A DNA stretch of 36,574 bases from an uncultured Planctomycetia bacterium (lineage in GTDB: Bacteria; Planctomycetota; Phycisphaerae; Phycisphaerales; SM1A02), in the NCBI GenBank assembly GCA_937919205.1, contig CALFOZ010000177.1, positions 1 through 36,574 on the forward strand, read 5' to 3'. Each line of letters starts with the position of its first letter. Within the stretch, counting starts at the first letter, position 1. Below, one piece after another: positions 7,903-18,174 of the stretch. The position numbers and the translations under genes were made by a program. The notes beneath the pieces were generated by a model that did not search any database, was not told where the DNA came from, and saw only the letters and a program-made list of their open reading frames with translations.

Positions 7903-7962
7903 GCGTGAAAGCATACGGACAGATCTCACTCCGTGCGAATGCGGGTTACTCTTTCAAGCGCC

Positions 7963-8787
7963 ATGTTTCTTACCACGCCAAGATGGTGGTTGCCATTCTT
8001 CATGCCTTCAACTATTTCGTTGTTGCTGATTGTTGTGGGCTTGATCTTCATGTGGCGCAATCGCGCGCATTGCAATGCGCGTGCGTGGCGCTTTGGCGCG
8101 TTGCTGAACGCGTGCGGCGCGGTGATTTTGTATCTGGCGTGCGCTCCGCTTGTCGCAACCTGGTTGGCCCTGGGCTTGGAGCGCATGGTTGCCCCGCTTC
8201 GTGCCGCCGATGCGCCACAGTGCGACGCGATTGTGGTGCTTGGAAGCACATTTCACTGGCACCGTGATCAACCAAATGAAACATGTCTTATAAGCGCAAC
8301 CGCGGATCGATTTCGCGTGGCTGTTGAGGCATACAAACTTGGCAAGGCGCCACTATTGGTGTTGGGTGGCGGCGGCAAGCCCGATGATCCAAACGTAAGT
8401 GAGGGGCAATTTCAAAAACAAATGGCACTTGAGTTGGCTATTCCGCAAAGCGCGATAGTGGTTGGTCCGCAAGCCGTGAACACCGAGGGTGAAGCTATTC
8501 AACACGCCAAGACATTGCGGGGCCTTGGTGTAAAAAAGATTTTGCTGGCAACCAGCGTCTTTCATTTGCCACGCGCCGCCATGCAATTTCGCGCGCTTGG
8601 ATTTGAAGTAGTTGAGCTTCCTTGTCACTATCTCACAGCCGGAATTGATGAGCAATTTTCATGGCGCATGCTGTTGCCTCGCGGGCAAGCCTTGGATCAA
8701 ACCGAAATATGTCTGAAGGAATATTTAGGCTTGATGTCGGCGACGCTTTTCCCGGCCAAGGAAACAACCGTTGAGTTAACGCCATGA
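7963..8787 (+). CDS. YdcF-like DUF218 membrane protein
   Basis: The 274-residue product has two N-terminal membrane helices (about residues 10-30 and 43-65), then a DUF218 domain: DAIVVLGSTF near residue 91, PLLVLGGGGKPDD, NTEGEAIQHAK and KILLATSVFHLPRA. DUF218 proteins (YdcF, SanA, ElyC) are membrane-bound and linked to envelope polysaccharide or peptidoglycan metabolism; the reaction is not known. The ATG at 7963 (MFLTTPRWW) was preferred; a GTG at 7933 and an ATG at 7939 are in frame. The stop overlaps the start of the next gene as ATGA (8784-8787), so the two are probably translated together. This ties it to the polysaccharide locus. Confidence 0.8.
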   Translation: MFLTTPRWWLPFFMPSTISLLLIVVGLIFMWRNRAHCNARAWRFGALLNACGAVILYLACAPLVATWLALGLERMVAPLRAADAPQCDAIVVLGSTFHWHRDQPNETCLISATADRFRVAVEAYKLGKAPLLVLGGGGKPDDPNVSEGQFQKQMALELAIPQSAIVVGPQAVNTEGEAIQHAKTLRGLGVKKILLATSVFHLPRAAMQFRALGFEVVELPCHYLTAGIDEQFSWRMLLPRGQALDQTEICLKEYLGLMSATLFPAKETTVELTP

Positions 8788-10490
8788 GCGGTATTTGCGG
8801 CCTGATTGATTTTGGCGCGGGCTTCACCGGAAAAAAACTTGTGGCATTGATGGGGAACATGCAACAGGCCATGATTCATCGTGGCTTTGAATGCGACTCG
8901 CTTTGGTTGGACGAGCAAACACAAATTGCGTTGTCCGATTGCCACCTGTTGACGTCGCGCACCGCGGTGCTGACAAACTCCACGGCGCAAATACACATTG
9001 TGTATGACGGCGACGCGCTTGCATCCACGCGCGGAGACACAGTTGAGCCCAACCAGCACCCACCCGTGTTGGCGGAACTTGCCCATGTGTTCGCCGATCC
9101 AACCAAGAGCCCTATTGATGCTCTGCGGGCCATTGACACTCCATTTGCATTGGCGCTTTGGAATAATCGACTTAAAAAATTGCTTCTGGCGCGCGATGCC
9201 TTCAATGCCAAGCCGCTGTATTTCGCTTCGGGTCGCGGATGGTTTGCGTTTGCCAGCGAATTGCGCGCGCTAAAAATGATTCCTGGATTCAACGCAACGC
9301 TAGATCAAGACGCGATCAATGATTACATGGACCATGGCGCGGTGCTAGCGCCGCGATCCATATATCAAGGCGCGCGCAAAGTGTGCGCCGGTGGATTTGT
9401 GGAGCTTGACTGCACCGCGCTTATGGCAAGCGCAAGCTTGACCACTATCCGAGAAAGTGATCCCGCCGCCAGTGGCGTTGTGACCATATTGGCGCCAATG
9501 TGCCCAGAATTGCATTCGTCAATTTTCCACTGCGCGCAATCAAAATATGATTCGCAATTTTTTCAGACATCTCTGGCGCAAACAAATCGAATGCGACTCA
9601 CGCTTGGCGAACAAAGTGAATTGATGCGGCGCGCGCTTCTTGATTCATTGCAACAGTCGCACTTTCGGTCTAGCAGTGTTCATGTCATGCAGAACAACGC
9701 GCCACTGGACGCTCTATTGATGGCAATGTGCCGTTTGGAATTGCAACTTGAAACACACATGCACGCGGTGGCGGACCCCCTGCATGCCAATAACGCCGAT
9801 CTTTGCAATGCAATTGCCCAACATCTTGGTGTTGGTCATGATCGCGGTGAATCGCCCGGTGATTTTGCTGAATCGCTCAGTCGAATCGCCGTATCGCTTG
9901 ACGAGCCAATTGGATCACTTGATGCGCTCCACCTAAACGCGACAGTCGCCTTCATGCGCATGAATTCTTCGCACGCGTTCAGCGGAGTGGGCGCGCCCTT
10001 TGCCACGCCCGCAATTGCAACACAATCGCACCAACGTGACATCGCGCTACTCAATCAACTTTGCGCGCATCACTCACTTGCCGTGGCCACGCCATTTCTA
10101 AATCAGCACATCGCCAAGCTCATGCCCGCAGAAGCCACCAGACCAACCAATGGCCTTGTGGGTGTATTTGCTCAACACGGCTGGCCGCGGCAATCAGCGG
10201 TCGCGCAAGGCGACGTGCTGTTACATATGTTGCGCCGATATTTTCCAGAGACACTGATCACGCGAATCATGCAAGCCAACACCATGCAGATTCTTCCGCG
10301 CGCCGAGCAATCACTGATGGAACTAGGCGAGTCCATGCTATTTCACAACGATTCACAAGTTTGTAAACTCACCAATCGAATCGCATTGCGTGGCGTGCTC
10401 GCCAGCCCAGCCCCAACGGCGCGCGAGGCCGCACAGCGACGCTGGTCATTGCTGGTATTGGAATATTGGTTGCGCCGACATATGGCGTAA
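8784..10490 (+). CDS. Degenerate asparagine synthetase homologue (predicted pseudoenzyme)
   Basis: This 568-residue protein follows the AsnB layout throughout, but active-site residues are gone. It begins MSGICGLIDF where active enzymes begin MCGI, so the nucleophile Cys2 is Ser. HRGPD is HRGFE, the FNGEVYN motif is YDGDALA (about 74-80), and the acidic residue of the SDTE loop is replaced by QHPP. Still conserved are DAFNAKPLYFA (138-148), FASELRALK (156-164), APRSIYQG and DEP (373-375). In the synthetase half, the PPi loop SGGxDS is replaced by QNNAPLDA (about 303-310), SGDGGDELFAGY by SGVGAPFATPAI, and the GK of the late Lys motif by GLVG. The frame is intact and full length, which suggests it is kept for a structural or regulatory role. 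It is coupled to the ydcF-like gene by ATGA. Confidence 0.85.
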   Translation: MSGICGLIDFGAGFTGKKLVALMGNMQQAMIHRGFECDSLWLDEQTQIALSDCHLLTSRTAVLTNSTAQIHIVYDGDALASTRGDTVEPNQHPPVLAELAHVFADPTKSPIDALRAIDTPFALALWNNRLKKLLLARDAFNAKPLYFASGRGWFAFASELRALKMIPGFNATLDQDAINDYMDHGAVLAPRSIYQGARKVCAGGFVELDCTALMASASLTTIRESDPAASGVVTILAPMCPELHSSIFHCAQSKYDSQFFQTSLAQTNRMRLTLGEQSELMRRALLDSLQQSHFRSSSVHVMQNNAPLDALLMAMCRLELQLETHMHAVADPLHANNADLCNAIAQHLGVGHDRGESPGDFAESLSRIAVSLDEPIGSLDALHLNATVAFMRMNSSHAFSGVGAPFATPAIATQSHQRDIALLNQLCAHHSLAVATPFLNQHIAKLMPAEATRPTNGLVGVFAQHGWPRQSAVAQGDVLLHMLRRYFPETLITRIMQANTMQILPRAEQSLMELGESMLFHNDSQVCKLTNRIALRGVLASPAPTAREAAQRRWSLLVLEYWLRRHMA

Positions 10491-10517: not shown

Positions 10518-12371
10518 TCAGCGCGATTTTGCGACGGTGGTTTCATATCCACCCACAAGCTCGCCCAGCAATTTACGCACCACACCATCGTCTCGCTGAT
10601 CGACGGCGGTTTGCAAGCGATCTAATTGCACCTCTAGCAAATTCCATGACTCAAATGGCTCGCGCGCCAAACCAATAGACGCGTGCTCGGTGGTGGTGGA
10701 GTCACTGCTGATCAGCAATTCCTCATACAACTTTTCACCCGGTCGCATGCCCGTGATTTTAATTTCAATTTCACCCGTGGGGTGGTCCTCATTGCGCAAG
10801 GTGCGGCCAGCTAGGCGAATCATGTTCTTGGCTAGGTCCATAATTTTCACGGGCTCACCCATGTCAAGCACAAATACCTCGCCGCCCTTGGCCATGGCGC
10901 CAGCCTGAATGACAAGTTGCGCGGCCTCTGGAATAGTCATGAAGTAGCGCACCATTTCCGCATGCGTCACCGTGACCGGACCGCCACGTTCAAGTTGCTC
11001 TTGAAACAGCGGAATAACGGAGCCGGAAGATCCAAGCACATTTCCAAAGCGCACCATTGAAAAAATGGTGCGTCCCTTTGAAATTTCATTCATGGACTGC
11101 AAAATAATTTCAGCCAATCGCTTGCTTGCGCCCATGACGCTGGTGGGTCGCACGGCCTTATCAGTTGATACAAAAATAAACGCCTTCACGCCGGCGCGCA
11201 ACGCGGCTTGCGCCATGGTGAGCGTGCCAAATACGTTGGTCTCCACGCCGGCGGTCTCATGTTTTTCAACCATGGGAACGTGCTTGTAGGCGGCGGCGTG
11301 ATAGATCGTTTCAATTCTCTGTGCCACCAATAATCGGTCAACTAGCACGCGATCGTTCACCGATCCAAGCGAGGTCTCCAGCAACATTTCACTTCCATGC
11401 TTGGAAATAATGTGGCGAATTTCTTTTTCTATCACGTACAAATTGTGCTCACATTGCTCCAGAAGAACCAAGCGCGTTGGACCCGCCTGCACAATTTTGC
11501 GGCACAACTCCGAGCCGATTGAGCCGCCCGCGCCAGTCACCAGCACGCTTTTACCAGCGATGTGCCGATGCATTAATTCATCGTTGGCTGTAACAGGCGT
11601 GCGGCCAAGCAAATCGTCCACTTTCACGGGGCGAAGTTGCCCCACTGACGCCGTGCCATCATCCAGTTCGGCCAATGTTGGCACGGTCAATACGCGCACG
11701 CCATGCGCTGTTGCTTGTTGCACCAACTTTAATCGGCGCGAGCGACTTGCGCCCGGAAGCGCCAACAACAACGCCTTGATGTCATGCTTGGCGAACACGT
11801 TCGAAATATTTTCGGAGCTATACACAGGAACATTGCGGATTTTTCGGCCCTGCAGTTTTGCATCATCATCAATAAATGCAACAACGGATTGTTCGCGGCC
11901 ATGAATAAGCGCGGAGTGCAAACCAATTCCAGCCGCGCCCGCGCCAAAGATGGCCACTTGGTAATTTTTTGCGTAGCCGCCCTTGCCCAGCAGTACCCAG
12001 CGCGCCGCAAGGCGGGTGCCGCCAATCGCCAAAGTGGTAATGGCGAAATAAATAAAAGGCACTGTTCTAGGCAGTGATCCAAAGCGATCATATAAAAATG
12101 TGACCAGCAACATGGCCGCGGTCAGCAAGGCCACACCCTTGCACACACGCACCGCGAAAATTGGCCCAATGTATCGCGTGATTTCTTTGTACAAACCGGC
12201 GAGATAAAAACATATTGGGCCCAACAGCGCCGCCCAAATTAAAAGCGACTTGCTTGCGGACCACGCCTCATTGATGTCACCGTAGCGCAACAGATAGGCG
12301 CACAAAAAGAGCCCTGCGCACAGCACCGAGTCGGTCACTGCCGCCACAAAGAGTTTGGAAGCCCCAGTCAT
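10518..12371 (-). CDS. Membrane-bound UDP-sugar 4,6-dehydratase, FlaA1/WbpM/CapD family
   Basis: The 617-residue product has four N-terminal membrane helices (about residues 5-120), a first nucleotide-binding domain with FGAGAAGIG near 142, and a C-terminal extended SDR domain with TGAGGSIGSE near 279-288. The catalytic site reads STDKAVRPTSVMGASKR (402-418): Ser-Thr, Met in place of the usual Tyr, and Lys417, as in WbpM/PglF-type enzymes. These convert UDP-GlcNAc to the 4-keto-6-deoxy sugar at the start of QuiNAc, FucNAc or bacillosamine synthesis for surface glycans. The ATG at 12371 was chosen because a promoter-like pair at 12399-12426 would start transcription near 12392, where a longer start lies. 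It is convergent with the pseudo-AsnB gene (27-base gap). Confidence 0.92.
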   Translation of the reverse strand: MTGASKLFVAAVTDSVLCAGLFLCAYLLRYGDINEAWSASKSLLIWAALLGPICFYLAGLYKEITRYIGPIFAVRVCKGVALLTAAMLLVTFLYDRFGSLPRTVPFIYFAITTLAIGGTRLAARWVLLGKGGYAKNYQVAIFGAGAAGIGLHSALIHGREQSVVAFIDDDAKLQGRKIRNVPVYSSENISNVFAKHDIKALLLALPGASRSRRLKLVQQATAHGVRVLTVPTLAELDDGTASVGQLRPVKVDDLLGRTPVTANDELMHRHIAGKSVLVTGAGGSIGSELCRKIVQAGPTRLVLLEQCEHNLYVIEKEIRHIISKHGSEMLLETSLGSVNDRVLVDRLLVAQRIETIYHAAAYKHVPMVEKHETAGVETNVFGTLTMAQAALRAGVKAFIFVSTDKAVRPTSVMGASKRLAEIILQSMNEISKGRTIFSMVRFGNVLGSSGSVIPLFQEQLERGGPVTVTHAEMVRYFMTIPEAAQLVIQAGAMAKGGEVFVLDMGEPVKIMDLAKNMIRLAGRTLRNEDHPTGEIEIKITGMRPGEKLYEELLISSDSTTTEHASIGLAREPFESWNLLEVQLDRLQTAVDQRDDGVVRKLLGELVGGYETTVAKSR

Positions 12372-12398
12372 GTGCACAAGTGAATTTCGCACGAATGC

Positions 12399-12559: not shown

Positions 12560-14521
12560 ATGTGCGGCATAGCGGGCTTCATCGATTTTTCACATTCACT
12601 CAAGAACCCCGAGGGCGTTCTGCGCGACATGGCCGCCACACTTTCGCACCGCGGGCCAGATGCGTCTGGAATTTTCTTTGATGCGCCAACGCGCGTTGGC
12701 TTGGCGCACACGCGCCTGAAAATTATTGACTGCACCGACTCTGCGGCGCAACCCATGCGTTCTCACAGTGGCCGCTTCTCACTGGTCTTCAACGGCGAGG
12801 TGTACAACTTTCAAGAGTTGCGCGATGAACTGCGCGCGTTGGGCGTGGCGTTTCGCTCACACTCGGATACGGAAGTTCTGTTGGCCGCCGTGGAAACGTG
12901 GGGCGTTGCGGGCGCGGCGCGGCGCGCGGTTGGCATGTTCGCATTTGCCGTGCATGATGTATTGGAACGCACGATGTATTTAGTACGCGACCGAATCGGC
13001 ATAAAGCCCCTGTATTTTGGCTGGATTGGCCAGGGTGATGCGCGCATGTTCGCGTTTGCCAGCGAACTGAAAGCCATCGTGTGCGTGCCCAACTTTGAGC
13101 GTGCCGTGGACCGCGACGCGCTGGCTGACTACTTTCAATTTTTGTACGTGCCTGCGCCGCGCACAATTTGGAAAGGCATTTCCAAACTTGCGCCCGCGCA
13201 CATCATGTCCATTCATATGGACACGGGCGAAACACAGACATCCATGTTTTGGAACGCGCGCGCCATTGCCGAGCGCGGCGTGGCTGAACCGTTTGTGGGA
13301 AGCGACGCAGACGCGCAAGATGCGCTGTTCATGCGCGTGCGGAGCGCGGTTGAGGATCACATGGTTTCGGATGTTCCCATTGGCGCGTTTCTTTCTGGTG
13401 GAATTGATTCCACGCTTGTCTGCGCCGTCATGCAATCAATTTCTCCACAGCCCATTCGCACATTCACTGTTGGCTTTGAAGAAACGCACATGGATGAGCG
13501 CCTGCACGCCAACAGTGTGGCCAAACATTTAAAGACCGACCACACCAGCATTCGCGTTTCTTCGCCTGAGTTGCGCGACGCCATTCCCCGGCTGGCGCAC
13601 ATGTTTGATGAACCATTCGCGGATTCCAGCCAGCTTCCAACGTATCTCATTAGCCAAGCGGCGCGCCAGCATGTCACGGTGGCGCTGTCTGGCGATGGCG
13701 GCGATGAACTGTTCGCCGGCTACAACCGGCATCGCATGATGGATCATGTGTGGCCGGCTCTGCGAAAAATTCCGAATCCACTGCGAGCAACCGCGGCGTC
13801 AATGATCCGCATGTTTTCCACCAAGCAACTTGATGTTGTTGGAAAATTCGCCCAGCCACTGTTGCCCGACGCGTTGCGATCAAGTCAATTTGGAAATCAC
13901 TTGCATAAAATTGCGTCGTTGGCAAAGTGCAAAGAGTGGAGCGACGCCTATGTCGCGCTGGTCAGCGCGTGGAATGACCCCGCGCACTTGGTGATTGATT
14001 CGCGGCACGAAGCCACGCGCGTTGATCCAATCAATCAAGCCAACATGCCCGACGCATTGCGCGCCATGCAGTGGCTTGATCAAACAACGTATTTGGTGGA
14101 TGACATTTTGACCAAGCTCGACCGCGCCAGTATGGCGGCAAGTTTGGAGACGCGCGTGCCGCTACTTGATCATCGACTTGTGGAGTTTGCGTGGACATTG
14201 CCCGCGGATATGAAAGTGCGCAACGGTCAGGGCAAATGGATTGTGCGGCAAGTGCTCAACAGATTTGCGCCCGCGCCGCTTATGGATCGCCCCAAAATGG
14301 GCTTTGCCATTCCGCTGGAGTCGTGGCTACGCGGCCCACTGCGTGAATGGGCCAGTGAGTTGTTGGATGAGCGCCGCGTGCGCGAGCAAGGATTTGTACA
14401 CGCGGATGTTGTGGCGCAAGAATGGCGGCAACTCTGCGCCGGCGGTGGCGCGCATCAACACAAAGTTTGGGCGTTGCTGATGTGGATGGCGTGGGTTGAA
14501 TATTGGAAGCCAACATCATGA
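12560..14521 (+). CDS. asnB: Asparagine synthase-type glutamine amidotransferase
   Basis: This 653-residue, apparently active AsnB-family enzyme uses glutamine and ATP to amidate a carboxylate. The start MCGIAGF places the nucleophile Cys2 directly after Met. The glutaminase pocket is complete: HRGPD (30-34), HTRLKIID (50-57), FNGEVYN (77-83) and SDTE (102-105). The synthetase half has the PPi loop FLSGGIDS (277-284), ALSGDGGDELFAGYNRH (375-391), DDILTKLDRASMAASLETRVP and GKWIVR. The substrate could be aspartate, but this subgroup is common in polysaccharide loci, where WbpS-like members amidate uronic acids; a UDP-glucuronate epimerase lies 1.4 kb downstream. The stop TGA overlaps a short ORF as ATGA at 14518-14521, leading into the glycosyltransferase gene. 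Confidence 0.93.
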   Translation: MCGIAGFIDFSHSLKNPEGVLRDMAATLSHRGPDASGIFFDAPTRVGLAHTRLKIIDCTDSAAQPMRSHSGRFSLVFNGEVYNFQELRDELRALGVAFRSHSDTEVLLAAVETWGVAGAARRAVGMFAFAVHDVLERTMYLVRDRIGIKPLYFGWIGQGDARMFAFASELKAIVCVPNFERAVDRDALADYFQFLYVPAPRTIWKGISKLAPAHIMSIHMDTGETQTSMFWNARAIAERGVAEPFVGSDADAQDALFMRVRSAVEDHMVSDVPIGAFLSGGIDSTLVCAVMQSISPQPIRTFTVGFEETHMDERLHANSVAKHLKTDHTSIRVSSPELRDAIPRLAHMFDEPFADSSQLPTYLISQAARQHVTVALSGDGGDELFAGYNRHRMMDHVWPALRKIPNPLRATAASMIRMFSTKQLDVVGKFAQPLLPDALRSSQFGNHLHKIASLAKCKEWSDAYVALVSAWNDPAHLVIDSRHEATRVDPINQANMPDALRAMQWLDQTTYLVDDILTKLDRASMAASLETRVPLLDHRLVEFAWTLPADMKVRNGQGKWIVRQVLNRFAPAPLMDRPKMGFAIPLESWLRGPLREWASELLDERRVREQGFVHADVVAQEWRQLCAGGGAHQHKVWALLMWMAWVEYWKPTS

Positions 14522-14595
14522 GCGCCAACATATTCCACAACGCGCTGAATGGCGCACGCAAGCACGCGCGCGCAAGATTGGGGCGCGCGCGATGA
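14518..14595 (+). CDS. 25-codon ORF bridging asnB and the glycosyltransferase
   Basis: An ATG overlapping the asnB stop (ATGA, 14518-14521) opens a 25-codon frame whose own stop TGA overlaps the glycosyltransferase start (ATGA, 14592-14595). The peptide begins MSANIFHNALNGARK and is Arg/Ala-rich and basic after that, with no known domain. It could be a coupling leader that carries ribosomes across the 70-base gap, or chance. Confidence 0.35.
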   Translation: MSANIFHNALNGARKHARARLGRAR

Positions 14596-15734
14596 CCCAG
14601 AAAACACTCGCTCTGCTTGGAAAAAATGCGCAACATGTGTTGGCGTTTCGCGGCAGTTTAATTCGCGCCGCGCAAGCCAATGGCCACCGCGTAATCGCGC
14701 TCACCGCGCCCGCAAGCCCTCGTGCGCGACAACGCTTGCGCGAGTTTGATGTGGAGCACTTTGACACACCTCTGAGTGGCGGAAAAATTTCCCCACTACG
14801 CGATTTGCAATTTCAAACGACAGTCAGTGAAATTTTAAAAACGCAAAAAGTAAACGCGCTACTGGCGTACAACCCAAAGTGCATTGCGTTTGGTCCGGTT
14901 GCCGCGCGTCGCGCGGGCGTGAAAAACATCGCCGTCGTTGTCACTGGTCTCGGCTTTGCGTTCACTGGTCGCTCAATCGCGCGGCGATTCATTCGCTTTT
15001 TCTCCACACGCCTTTATCGCCGCTCACTTGCGGCCTGCGATGCCGTTTTCTTTCAAAATCAAATTGACCGCGATGAACTTACAGCGCTTGAGGTGTTGAC
15101 CAACGTTCCCCCCGCGCGCGTGCACATCATCGCGGGATCCGGAGTTGATCTTGAATACTTTGCGCCACAACCTGTTCCAACACAAACGCACTTTCTCATG
15201 ATCAGTCGCCCGCTAAAAGACAAAGGGGTGGCGGAATTTGCGCAGGCGTGCAAGATTGTGCGCGCACGCAATCCCGCCATTCGTTGCACGCTGATCTGCG
15301 CGTGGGACGACAACCCAAGCAGTTTCACGCGCGCCGACATTGCGCATTTGGCGCAACAAGGTTGCTTTGAGGCGCTTGACGAAGTGGAGGATGTGCGTCT
15401 GCATCTGCAATCGTGCACCACATTTGTATTGCCTTCGTATCGCGAGGGCACAAGCAAAGTTGTGCTTGAAGCCATGGCCACGGGCCGCGCGATTATTTCC
15501 ACGGACGCAATTGGGTGCCGCGATCCCATTGAACCTGGCGTGAACGGATTGCTTGTTGCAACGCACTCCGCCACCGAACTTGCCGCCGCCATGTTGGAAC
15601 TGGCCAATGATCCAGCGCGCAACGCCGCCATGGGCGCGGCAAGCCGCCGCATTGCGCAAGAAAAATACAACGCCAAGCCAATCGACGCGGCCATTCTGCA
15701 TGCGCTGAATCTGGACGCGCCCGCGCGCGCCTAA
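14592..15734 (+). CDS. GT4-family glycosyltransferase
   Basis: The 380-residue product has the GT-B two-domain form of family GT4. The N-terminal half has KTLALLGKNAQHVLAFRGSL and, near residue 115, KNIAVVVTGLGFAFTG, typical of the undecaprenyl-linked repeat-unit transferases of the group found in exopolysaccharide clusters. The C-terminal half has LMISRPLKDKGVAEF, which binds the nucleotide sugar, and the EX7E motif in SYREGTSKVVLEAMATGRAI. It probably adds one sugar to a lipid-linked intermediate at the cytoplasmic face; donor and acceptor cannot be read from sequence. The ATG at 14592 was chosen because it starts the conserved domain and is ATGA-coupled to the bridging ORF. Confidence 0.88.
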   Translation: MTQKTLALLGKNAQHVLAFRGSLIRAAQANGHRVIALTAPASPRARQRLREFDVEHFDTPLSGGKISPLRDLQFQTTVSEILKTQKVNALLAYNPKCIAFGPVAARRAGVKNIAVVVTGLGFAFTGRSIARRFIRFFSTRLYRRSLAACDAVFFQNQIDRDELTALEVLTNVPPARVHIIAGSGVDLEYFAPQPVPTQTHFLMISRPLKDKGVAEFAQACKIVRARNPAIRCTLICAWDDNPSSFTRADIAHLAQQGCFEALDEVEDVRLHLQSCTTFVLPSYREGTSKVVLEAMATGRAIISTDAIGCRDPIEPGVNGLLVATHSATELAAAMLELANDPARNAAMGAASRRIAQEKYNAKPIDAAILHALNLDAPARA

Positions 15735-15875: not shown

Positions 15876-16883
15876 ATGAATATTCTTGTCACCGGCGCCG
15901 CGGGATTTATTGGTTCATTCACCGCGCATCAATTACTTGACCGAGGCGACCACGTTGTTGGCCTTGACAACATGAACAACTATTACGACCCCACGCTCAA
16001 GCAAGCGCGCTTGGCGCGTCTGCAAGCGCGCGCCAATTTCACATTTACGCAAGTGGATTTGTGCGACACGGACGCAATGAAATCCCTATTCGCCAAAAAT
16101 AAGTTCGACCGCGTGATTCATTTGGCGGCGCAGGCCGGCGTGCGCTACTCCATTGAAAATCCAATGGCGTACACGCAAAGCAATTTGGTTGGCATGACCA
16201 ACATTCTTGAAGGTTGCCGCCACGGCAAAGTGGCGCACCTGGTCTACGCCAGCACAAGTTCTGTGTACGGCCTGAACACCACGCAACCATTTTCGCCGCA
16301 CCACAGCGCCGATCATCCAATGACTTTTTACGCCGCCACCAAGCGTGCCAACGAACTCATGGCGCATTCATACAGCCACATTTTTGGCATGCCCACAACT
16401 GGCCTGCGTTTCTTCACGGTGTATGGTCCGTGGGGTCGCCCCGACATGGCGCTGTTTCTTTTCACCAAGGCCATTCTTGCGGGCGAACCCGTTCGCTTGT
16501 TCAACCACGGCAAGCACACGCGCGACTTCACCTATGTTGAAGATATTGCGCGCGGCGTGATCGCGTCCGCCGATCGCATTGCAACGGCGGACGCAACATT
16601 CAACGCGGCCAAGCCCGCCATGGCAAGCAGTAGCGCGCCGTGGCGCTTGTACAACATTGGTTGCTCGCGGCCAGTGCAGTTGTTGCGATACATTGAAGTG
16701 TTGGAGCAATGCCTGGGCAAAAAAGCCCAGACAGAAATGCTACCACTGCAATTAGGCGACGTGCCCGACACATTTGCCGACACCACAGACCTAGCGCGCG
16801 ATATGAACTATCAACCCTCCACCACGATTGACATTGGCGTGGCGAATTTTGTAAAGTGGTACCGCGACTATTACAAGGCGTAA
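15876..16883 (+). CDS. UDP-glucuronate 4-epimerase-like NAD-dependent epimerase
   Basis: The 335-residue product is an extended SDR with the NAD motif TGAAGFIGS (6-14) and the catalytic Ser-Tyr-Lys set in ASTSSVYG (near 125-132) and [10 protein letters not shown] (Tyr152, Lys156). [17 protein letters not shown] and [15 protein letters not shown] followed by [19 protein letters not shown] are typical of the UDP-GlcA 4-epimerase subgroup (LpsL, CapI, plant GAE), which makes UDP-galacturonate for surface polysaccharides. This fits the nearby amidotransferase and glycosyltransferase. UDP-glucuronate itself must come from a UDP-glucose dehydrogenase encoded elsewhere. It is convergent with the GH57 gene, with 13 bases between stops. 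Confidence 0.9.
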
Positions 16884-16896
16884 GCGCGCAACACCA

Positions 16897-18174
16897 TCAC
16901 GCGCCCGCGCGTGTGCGCAGATTGTCCAACACATTCATAAAATTAATGTACGCGTCATACGGACTGTCATAGGGCGAGAAATATTTGTGCACGTCGCCGT
17001 CGGACCAATATTTGGTGCACATGTAGTACAAGTGGTCGCTGGTAGTCAGCTTGCGCCAATCCTCCAGAATGTATGGGTCGCCCTTCAAGTGCTTGTCGCG
17101 CACCGCGGGCTCAAGCCGATACAACTCCTCCACCGCGTTGTCCTGCAGTGGGTTGCCCAACCACGCCGACAAATCACGCTCCATGTCGGCCCACGAAATT
17201 GGCTTGGGCACATCGTATTCACCAACGGGTCGATACTTCTCAACGGCCTGCGACACGGTCAAGAATTCATTCTGCCCAGGGTTCACATCAAAAATATATT
17301 TTGGCATGGCGTCAAGAAAATCAAAGATGCCAGTCTCGGCCCATTGATGCTCGCCAAATGTTTCATAGTCCATGAATAAGTTGCACAAATTTCCGTCGCC
17401 GTTGATTTGATTCACCCAACCCGCGAACTTCTCGGCGGACAGCGGCCAATCTTTCCAATCACGATTGCTGAAACGAAACGCAATGTCGTCGCTTAAGCGG
17501 TAATTTTTCAACAGCAACGGCATGGGCGGCCGGCCCTTTGGAAAACCATTTCCAGGAACCGCGTAGAGATAGTTTGGATTACGGAAACCAAGCAGGCGAT
17601 CAACGCCCTCGCACACCACGGCCTTGTGGCGACCCATCCACGCGATATGCCCGCCTATTTCGTTTGAATAAATCAATTCGGTGTTGCGAAAAACTTTTGG
17701 CTTCTGGCCAAAGAGCCGCTCAATCATGGCCTCTTGAATGGCGACCTGCTCTTCAAATTCCTTGCGGCTGAATAAAAAACTGAGCGAGTGATGGCTGGTC
17801 TCCGCCAAGAATTCACACGCACCGGTGTCGGCCAGGCGCTTGAACAAATCGATTAAGTCGGGCGCCCACTGTTCAAATTGCTGTAACGCCACGCCACTAA
17901 TGGAGTAGCTCACGCGAAAGCGATTCTCGTGGCGCTTCACCAGATCGAGAATTTTTTCCGTGGTTGGTCGATAGCACTTGTTGGCCACCTTCTGCAAAAT
18001 GGTTCCATTGGCTTCGGCGTCAAAGTAAAACGGATCAGTGTCAAACACGGAGTAGCGACGCAACCGAAACGGCTGATGCACTTGGAAATAAAAGACGACG
18101 CTTGCCACAGGGGTCAGAGTGTAGTTGCAATTCTTAAGCGCGCACGGCGCTTGCGCCAAAGCGTTTTTGGCCAA
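16897..18174 (-). CDS. Glycoside hydrolase family 57 protein
   Basis: The 425-residue product has GH57 landmarks: FYFQVHQPFRLRRY near residue 28-41, SGVALQQFEQWAPD, CEFLAETSHHSLSFL, VFRNTELIYSNEIGG with Glu166 as likely nucleophile, and FMDYETFGEHQW with Asp269 as likely acid. GH57 enzymes act on alpha-glucans (amylase, branching enzyme, amylopullulanase), inside the cell in members without a signal peptide, as here. Its role is probably in glycogen-like storage polymer metabolism rather than the exopolysaccharide locus. The start is uncertain: an in-frame GTG at 18108 would give MASVVFYFQVHQPF, nearer the usual family start, and would leave more promoter room before the divergent pyrE, which starts only 34 bases from the ATG used here. 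Confidence 0.88.
   Translation of the reverse strand: MAKNALAQAPCALKNCNYTLTPVASVVFYFQVHQPFRLRRYSVFDTDPFYFDAEANGTILQKVANKCYRPTTEKILDLVKRHENRFRVSYSISGVALQQFEQWAPDLIDLFKRLADTGACEFLAETSHHSLSFLFSRKEFEEQVAIQEAMIERLFGQKPKVFRNTELIYSNEIGGHIAWMGRHKAVVCEGVDRLLGFRNPNYLYAVPGNGFPKGRPPMPLLLKNYRLSDDIAFRFSNRDWKDWPLSAEKFAGWVNQINGDGNLCNLFMDYETFGEHQWAETGIFDFLDAMPKYIFDVNPGQNEFLTVSQAVEKYRPVGEYDVPKPISWADMERDLSAWLGNPLQDNAVEELYRLEPAVRDKHLKGDPYILEDWRKLTTSDHLYYMCTKYWSDGDVHKYFSPYDSPYDAYINFMNVLDNLRTRAGA

Follow-up and report, generated by a model that had tools for sequence, protein, structure and literature searches.

The locus described here raises the question of what a protein with the fold of asparagine synthetase (AsnB) is kept for when the catalytic residues of both of its sites have been replaced. 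The gene, here termed psAsnB, lies in a 36,574-nucleotide stretch of DNA from an uncultured planctomycete (hereafter the window; contig CALFOZ010000177.1), where it spans positions 8784-10490 of the forward strand and encodes 568 amino acids. It was identified as an AsnB-fold pseudoenzyme from its open reading frame, Pfam matches, orthologues, and an AlphaFold2 model. As argued below, psAsnB probably has a new, non-enzymatic job beside surface-polysaccharide genes.

Catalytic residues and predicted fold of psAsnB

The reading frame begins with MSGICG and opens with a class-II glutaminase (Ntn) domain (residues 1-210; 8784-9413, + strand). In this domain, the catalytic Cys is replaced by Ser2 (8787-8789, +; an AGY codon in all 9 copies in which it is visible), the Arg of the glutamine site by His54 (8943-8945, +), and Asn-Gly-Glu by Asp75-Gly76-Asp77 (9006-9014, +), with YDGD standing at the position of FNGE. 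In the synthetase half, QNNAPLDA (residues 303-310; 9690-9713, +) is what remains of the PPi loop LSGGxDSx, with Asp309 constant and the other positions differing among copies; SGVGAPFATPAI replaces SGDGGDELFAGY (residues 400-411; 9981-10016, +), and Met496 occupies the column of the late Lys. Every loss named in the original prediction, including that of the SDTE loop, was thus confirmed in the sequence. The landmarks of the AsnB layout that it names, DAFNAKPLYFA and FASELRALK, are both present.

The psAsnB protein scores 40.1 bits against GATase_7 (cut-off 25), 25.7 bits against GATase_6 (below the cut-off of 27), and 18.4 bits against PF00733 (just below the cut-off of 21). Orthologues were recovered from 10 of the 16 genomes of the genus, 8 of them full-length and open and 2 (in G011 and G015) cut by contig ends, and each of the 8 full-length copies has matches to PF00733 and to GATase_7 with E<=0.01. 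These 8 copies were aligned with 64 intact homologues, taken from the 74 non-psAsnB sequences that were extracted. Cys2, the glutamine-site Arg, Asn, Glu, and the Asp of SDTE are kept in none of the psAsnB copies, as compared to 64, 64, 64, 63, and 64 of the 64 intact homologues, respectively. The replacements of Cys2 by Ser, Arg by His, Asn by Asp, and Glu by Asp are each found in 8 of 8 copies. Similarly, SGGxDS, the DE pair of SGDGGDE, and the late Lys are found in 0 of 8. Of the features that define AsnB, psAsnB is predicted to have the two-domain fold and lacks the glutamine-site residues, the PPi loop, the SGDGGDE motif, and the late Lys. It has two attributes of a pseudoenzyme, namely homology to an enzyme family with loss of the catalytic residues, and maintenance by selection; as for a third, the lack of any activity of its own, its N-terminal Ser pocket raises some doubt.

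An AlphaFold2 model built from the 72-row alignment (pLDDT 83.5, pTM 0.87) retains both AsnB domains. Prediction from the 8 psAsnB sequences alone gave a pLDDT of 33.8 and, because only the alignment with the 64 intact homologues yielded a good model, the predicted fold is partly imposed by the intact rows. The nearest solved fold is the hydroxyamidotransferase TsnB9 (7YLZ; VIA Z 27.0, rmsd 3.8, 468 aligned), which is also the only PDB match of the psAsnB profile (E 0.00024); unlike psAsnB, the TsnB9 sequence starts with MCG and the enzyme is presumed active. Superposition on E. coli AsnB (VIA Z 24.9, rmsd 3.5, 432 aligned) is consistent with a retained two-domain fold whose catalytic residues, according to the alignment, are replaced. 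Human asparagine synthetase (ASNS), beta-lactam synthetase (VIA Z 23), and carbapenam synthetase (Z 21) are further close folds. Foldseek global TM-scores by query length are moderate, at 0.51-0.63 for the closest folds. For AsnB (1CT9; PF00733 and GATase_7), they are 0.54-0.59, with homologous sequence and a predicted two-domain fold over residues 2-568; AsnB differs from psAsnB in that the tested catalytic residues of both sites are replaced in the latter.

Probable origin from a second AsnB paralogue

Two trees were inferred, a quick one of 83 rows and a careful one of 58. In both, a branch separates the psAsnB copies from all other rows (support 100 in the first tree and 100/100 in the second), and their nearest neighbours are intact second AsnB paralogues from related genera (14 and 13 rows, respectively), the two groups being united with support of 99 and 100/99. 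An origin from the neighbouring AsnB was rejected, since both trees place the window's AsnB in a different clade. The psAsnB stem is long, at 2 changes per column, and its letter composition deviates; long-branch attraction is a caveat on the position that cannot be fully discounted. Two of the intact cousins (in G030 and G063) lie near Wzt_C ABC transporters and another (in G055) near ABC-2 membrane, sulfotransferase, methyltransferase, and glycosyltransferase genes. Three cousins reach 427-468 bits against the asparagine synthase model, above its cut-off of 267.1, and 440-482 bits against TIGR03108, below its cut-off of 816.9. The WbpS-type family TIGR03108 is the best NCBIfam match of psAsnB, which shares its polysaccharide-locus context; unlike that family, psAsnB lacks the catalytic residues, and it scores only 76.2 bits (99.4 and 82.4 bits for two other copies) against the same cut-off, below which the intact cousins also fall.

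Homologues were extracted with a required MxGxxG start, and the set is therefore not a census of AsnB pseudoenzymes. Among the 74 extracted non-psAsnB sequences, all with such starts, no other AsnB pseudoenzyme was found: 73 carry Cys2, all but L106, whose start is misplaced, and 73 carry SGGxDS. The exception to the latter, the second AsnB homologue of G002 (L090:761-2728, G002:C102), reads SSGIDS for SGGIDS in its PPi loop and keeps Cys2. A total of 29 of the 161 matching reading frames were left out because they had no MxGxxG start, were cut by a contig end, or were of odd length. Of these, 23 carry SGGxDS, 5 that do not carry it touch contig ends, and the remaining one is L021.

Unequal fates of the two sites

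The glutaminase domain is the most conserved part of psAsnB, with 107 of 210 positions (51%) invariant among the 8 copies versus 25-27% elsewhere in the protein. Of 32 glutaminase columns that are otherwise nearly invariant, 16 are retained, 6 replaced and fixed, 6 variable, 2 deleted, and 2 mostly kept, while the remaining 34 such columns comprise 4 retained, 3 replaced and fixed, 24 variable, and 3 mostly kept. This pattern of retention and fixation indicates that the glutaminase-like half is under the strongest constraint. The six replaced-and-fixed glutaminase residues (8 of 8 copies) are S2, F35, E36, H54, D75, and D77. Ser2, His54, Asp75, and Asp77 are common to all 9 copies with a visible N-terminus (8 full-length copies and the G011 fragment), with synonymous codon changes among copies at S2 and H54 and none at D75 and D77. 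The column of the SDTE Asp, in contrast, is variable and never Asp, and 5 of 6 positions of the PPi loop vary. The original prediction that both activities are lost while the frame is kept thus holds for the residue losses and the open frame; because the pocket substitutions are frozen while the PPi loop varies, the phrase "both activities lost" could conceal an N-terminal pocket that was rebuilt.

One alternative to a purely non-catalytic protein is therefore a neofunctionalized Ntn pocket, in which the N-terminal Ser, His54, Asp75, and Asp77 would serve a new ligand or reaction, for example as a Ser-nucleophile amidohydrolase or a sensor, with the synthetase domain acting only as a scaffold. 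The invariance of the four residues, the synonymous changes beneath two of them, and the conservation of their domain while the PPi loop drifts all favor such a pocket, as does the position of Ser2, since removal of the preceding Met would expose an N-terminal Ser. All 9 copies have the Ser2 that a Ser-nucleophile Ntn hydrolase would need, but Asp75 stands where such a hydrolase would have its oxyanion Asn. However, with 51% of the domain invariant, all four residues would be frozen with an expectation of about 0.07, and their invariance is no more than suggestive. Moreover, the start of the gene overlaps the preceding stop codon as ATGA (see below), which by itself excludes Cys at codon 2, the fifth site residue is variable, and Cys-to-Ser replacement usually kills class-II glutaminases. 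On balance, a new pocket chemistry is unlikely.

The DUF218-psAsnB pair within a polysaccharide locus

Directly upstream of psAsnB lies a gene for a DUF218 (ElyC/YdcF-like) protein (7933-8787, +) with two hydrophobic segments followed by the DUF218 domain; by their arrangement, the two genes share a transcription unit. In line with the translational coupling to a YdcF-like gene that had been predicted, the stop codon of DUF218 and the start codon of psAsnB lie within a shared ATGA (8784-8787, +) in all 9 copies with a visible 5' end. Because of this overlap, codon 2 must begin with A and cannot encode Cys; a single T-to-A change could have given rise to both Ser2 and the overlap. The pair is flanked by a divergent aquaporin gene upstream and a convergent gene for a PglF/CapD-like nucleotide-sugar dehydratase (Polysacc_synt_2; 10518-12392, -) downstream. 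The listed starts of the aquaporin-like and DUF218 frames are only a few bases apart (7929-7933), and the true starts are probably further inside. The intact AsnB that had been placed 2 kb away was found at 12560-14521 (+), about 2.07 kb downstream of psAsnB and in a separate transcription unit. Its best NCBIfam match is TIGR03108 (XrtA amidotransferase; 578.7 bits, below the cut-off of 816.9), it exceeds the cut-off of asn_synth_AEB, and no other strong PF00733 match turned up in its genome. A weak PF00733 match (26.1 bits) was seen elsewhere in that genome within a 288-amino-acid frame (G000:C141:36972-37157). Genes for a GT4 glycosyltransferase (14496-15734, +) and an NDP-sugar epimerase/dehydratase family protein (15876-16883, +) follow the intact AsnB. 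A GH57 glycoside hydrolase gene (16897-18174) adjoins this faster-evolving locus and is 95-99% identical among psAsnB carriers where visible and 82-84% identical in three relatives without psAsnB.

The gene order aquaporin, DUF218, psAsnB, PglF, AsnB, GT4 is constant wherever contigs permit, with DUF218 directly upstream of psAsnB in 9 of 9 cases; in all 10, PglF lies downstream and is followed by the intact AsnB, which a contig end truncates in one genome. Of the six genus members in which psAsnB was not found (G001, G004, G006, G008, G010, and G012), three have a visible slot. In one (G012), 45 bases separate the matched ends of DUF218 and PglF; in another (G010), AsnB comes after DUF218; and in the third (G001), an O-antigen-ligase-like (Wzy_C) frame (L046:5796-7148) sits between DUF218 and PglF, suggesting that the content of this slot varies from genome to genome. 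As both genes are present in these three genomes, neither AsnB nor DUF218 requires psAsnB.

A second alternative is that psAsnB serves the DUF218 protein alone, as its partner or cofactor, and has nothing to do with AsnB, the two forming a module that controls the use of polysaccharide or of a lipid carrier. In favor of this reading is the overlapping two-gene unit bounded by aquaporin and PglF. The DUF218 domain of ElyC, however, is predicted or stated to be periplasmic in two reports (PMC3879167; PMC8609368), and the two hydrophobic segments of the window's protein, with a basic loop between them as judged by eye, suggest that the coupled DUF218 domain is probably periplasmic as well. No strongly hydrophobic segment for export or membrane insertion was found in psAsnB, which would thus stay in the cytoplasm, making direct binding between the two doubtful. 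In addition, DUF218 genes occupy the same site without psAsnB in G012 and G010, and an exclusive partnership consequently appears improbable. A combined proposal, in which the pocket was rebuilt from Cys/Arg/Asn/Glu to Ser/His/Asp/Asp on one stem and then frozen while the synthetase site drifted, would make psAsnB a novel type of Ntn-fold sensor or Ser-nucleophile amidohydrolase coupled to the ElyC-like protein and tuning polysaccharide output; we regard this as a rather long shot.

Distribution and conservation

When the 181 genomes of the family were searched with the psAsnB profile (E<=1e-30), the 165 outside the genus yielded no orthologue. Eleven of these 165 match the profile at up to 132.6 bits, and all 11 matches look like intact AsnB homologues: 10 carry SGGVDS, and the other, a piece from G031, starts with MCGIAG and ends before the loop. 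Within the genus, psAsnB was not found in 6 of the 16 genomes, some of which are incomplete. A scan of genome contigs yielded 7 psAsnB loci, apparently those of genus genomes already counted, and among 149 genomes of the phylum, only the window's own carries the gene, there being no other genus member among those that match; 20 other genomes of this sample match solely within residues 1-255. No relative came up in one scan of viral contigs.

The 7 other full-length orthologues are open and 53-70% identical to psAsnB. Of 28 pairs compared, the 24 in which dS is unsaturated give dN/dS values of 0.16-0.32, well under 1. Neutral simulations, of 300 runs each, left an open frame once at 0.1 substitutions per site and never at 0.3 or 0.4. 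A chance reading frame or a sequencing error is ruled out by this conservation. The original prediction had allowed that the gene is simply decaying, as would be expected if homologues in close relatives had intact motifs or were mostly frameshifted; neither is the case, as all 7 other full-length close homologues share the losses and none is frameshifted, and the reading as a pseudoenzyme stands.

A subtler form of decay, that of a paralogue eroding slowly under residual or relaxed selection with no important function, has some points in its favor besides the absences within the genus. The synthetase half keeps shrinking (619 amino acids in the G014 copy, which has SGAGATDLFAG, and 562-588 in the others, which do not, versus 624-665 in the intact cousins compared). 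In addition, at 0.25-0.31, the dN/dS of psAsnB is above those of all measured neighbours in 3 of the 4 genome pairs compared, where neighbour genes range over 0.05-0.19, an out-of-frame aquaporin row for the window and G013 being left aside; the fourth pair (G005-G003) gave 0.16 versus 0.09-0.17. However, none of the 8 full-length copies has a stop or frameshift, dN/dS is low throughout, neutral simulations nearly always yield stops, and the overlap and synteny persist down to 53% identity. Decay is thus largely refuted by conservation and is, in our view, very unlikely; judged from these comparisons, psAsnB is a real, conserved, genus-restricted pseudoenzyme. That it is instead an active enzyme of altered chemistry, forming amides from ammonia without the classic loops, is extremely improbable, since, despite a DEP motif (residues 373-375) and fixed Asp309, Asn424, and Gln425 in 8 of 8 copies, the protein has lost SGGxDS, SGDGGDE, and the late Lys, the positions of these mostly vary, and the DE of SGDGGDE is an alignment gap in 6 of 8.

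Proposed function and implications

The reading preferred here, with a probability of roughly 0.45, is that psAsnB is a genus-specific pseudoenzyme derived from a second AsnB/WbpS-type paralogue and acts as a non-catalytic regulator or scaffold of surface-polysaccharide synthesis, plausibly with the intact AsnB as its partner. The ancestor would have been a second amidotransferase of a polysaccharide locus that lost its glutamine-hydrolysis and ATP/PPi residues along one long stem branch and kept the two-domain fold. A cytoplasmic psAsnB, made in step with the ElyC-like membrane protein, might then pair with the AsnB encoded 2 kb away as its likeliest physical partner, in a mixed dimer or an allosteric pair, and its well-conserved glutaminase-like domain may serve as a binding or sensing surface.

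A parallel for such a pairing is PDX1.2, which reportedly occurs in complex with the active PDX1.3. In one study, PDX1.2 is described as a non-catalytic paralogue and positive regulator of vitamin B6 synthesis (PMC6829848); its fold is unrelated to that of psAsnB, for which pairing is a proposal. Roles of related proteins in envelope polysaccharides also have precedent, in that an envelope sugar depends on the AsnB homologue WbpS for its uronamide form (PMC7468200) and data suggest a post-transcriptional inhibition of ECA-PG synthesis by ElyC (PMC8609368).

Among the matches listed from the open-access literature, as judged by titles and the beginnings of abstracts, no conserved AsnB-fold clade that lacks both sites and keeps the full fold turned up. 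AsnB-fold proteins that lack one activity are already known. Beta-lactam and carbapenam synthetases share the AsnB fold and have lost the glutaminase, kept the ATP/PPi site, and are active; psAsnB has lost the ATP/PPi site as well, with the fold predicted to be kept. The psAsnB clade represents a clean case: its sister paralogues are intact, it has one stem and a constant locus, and some members of the genus lack the gene at that site. Through it, the path from an amidotransferase to a non-enzymatic polysaccharide factor becomes testable, and it provides a handle on the role of DUF218 proteins.
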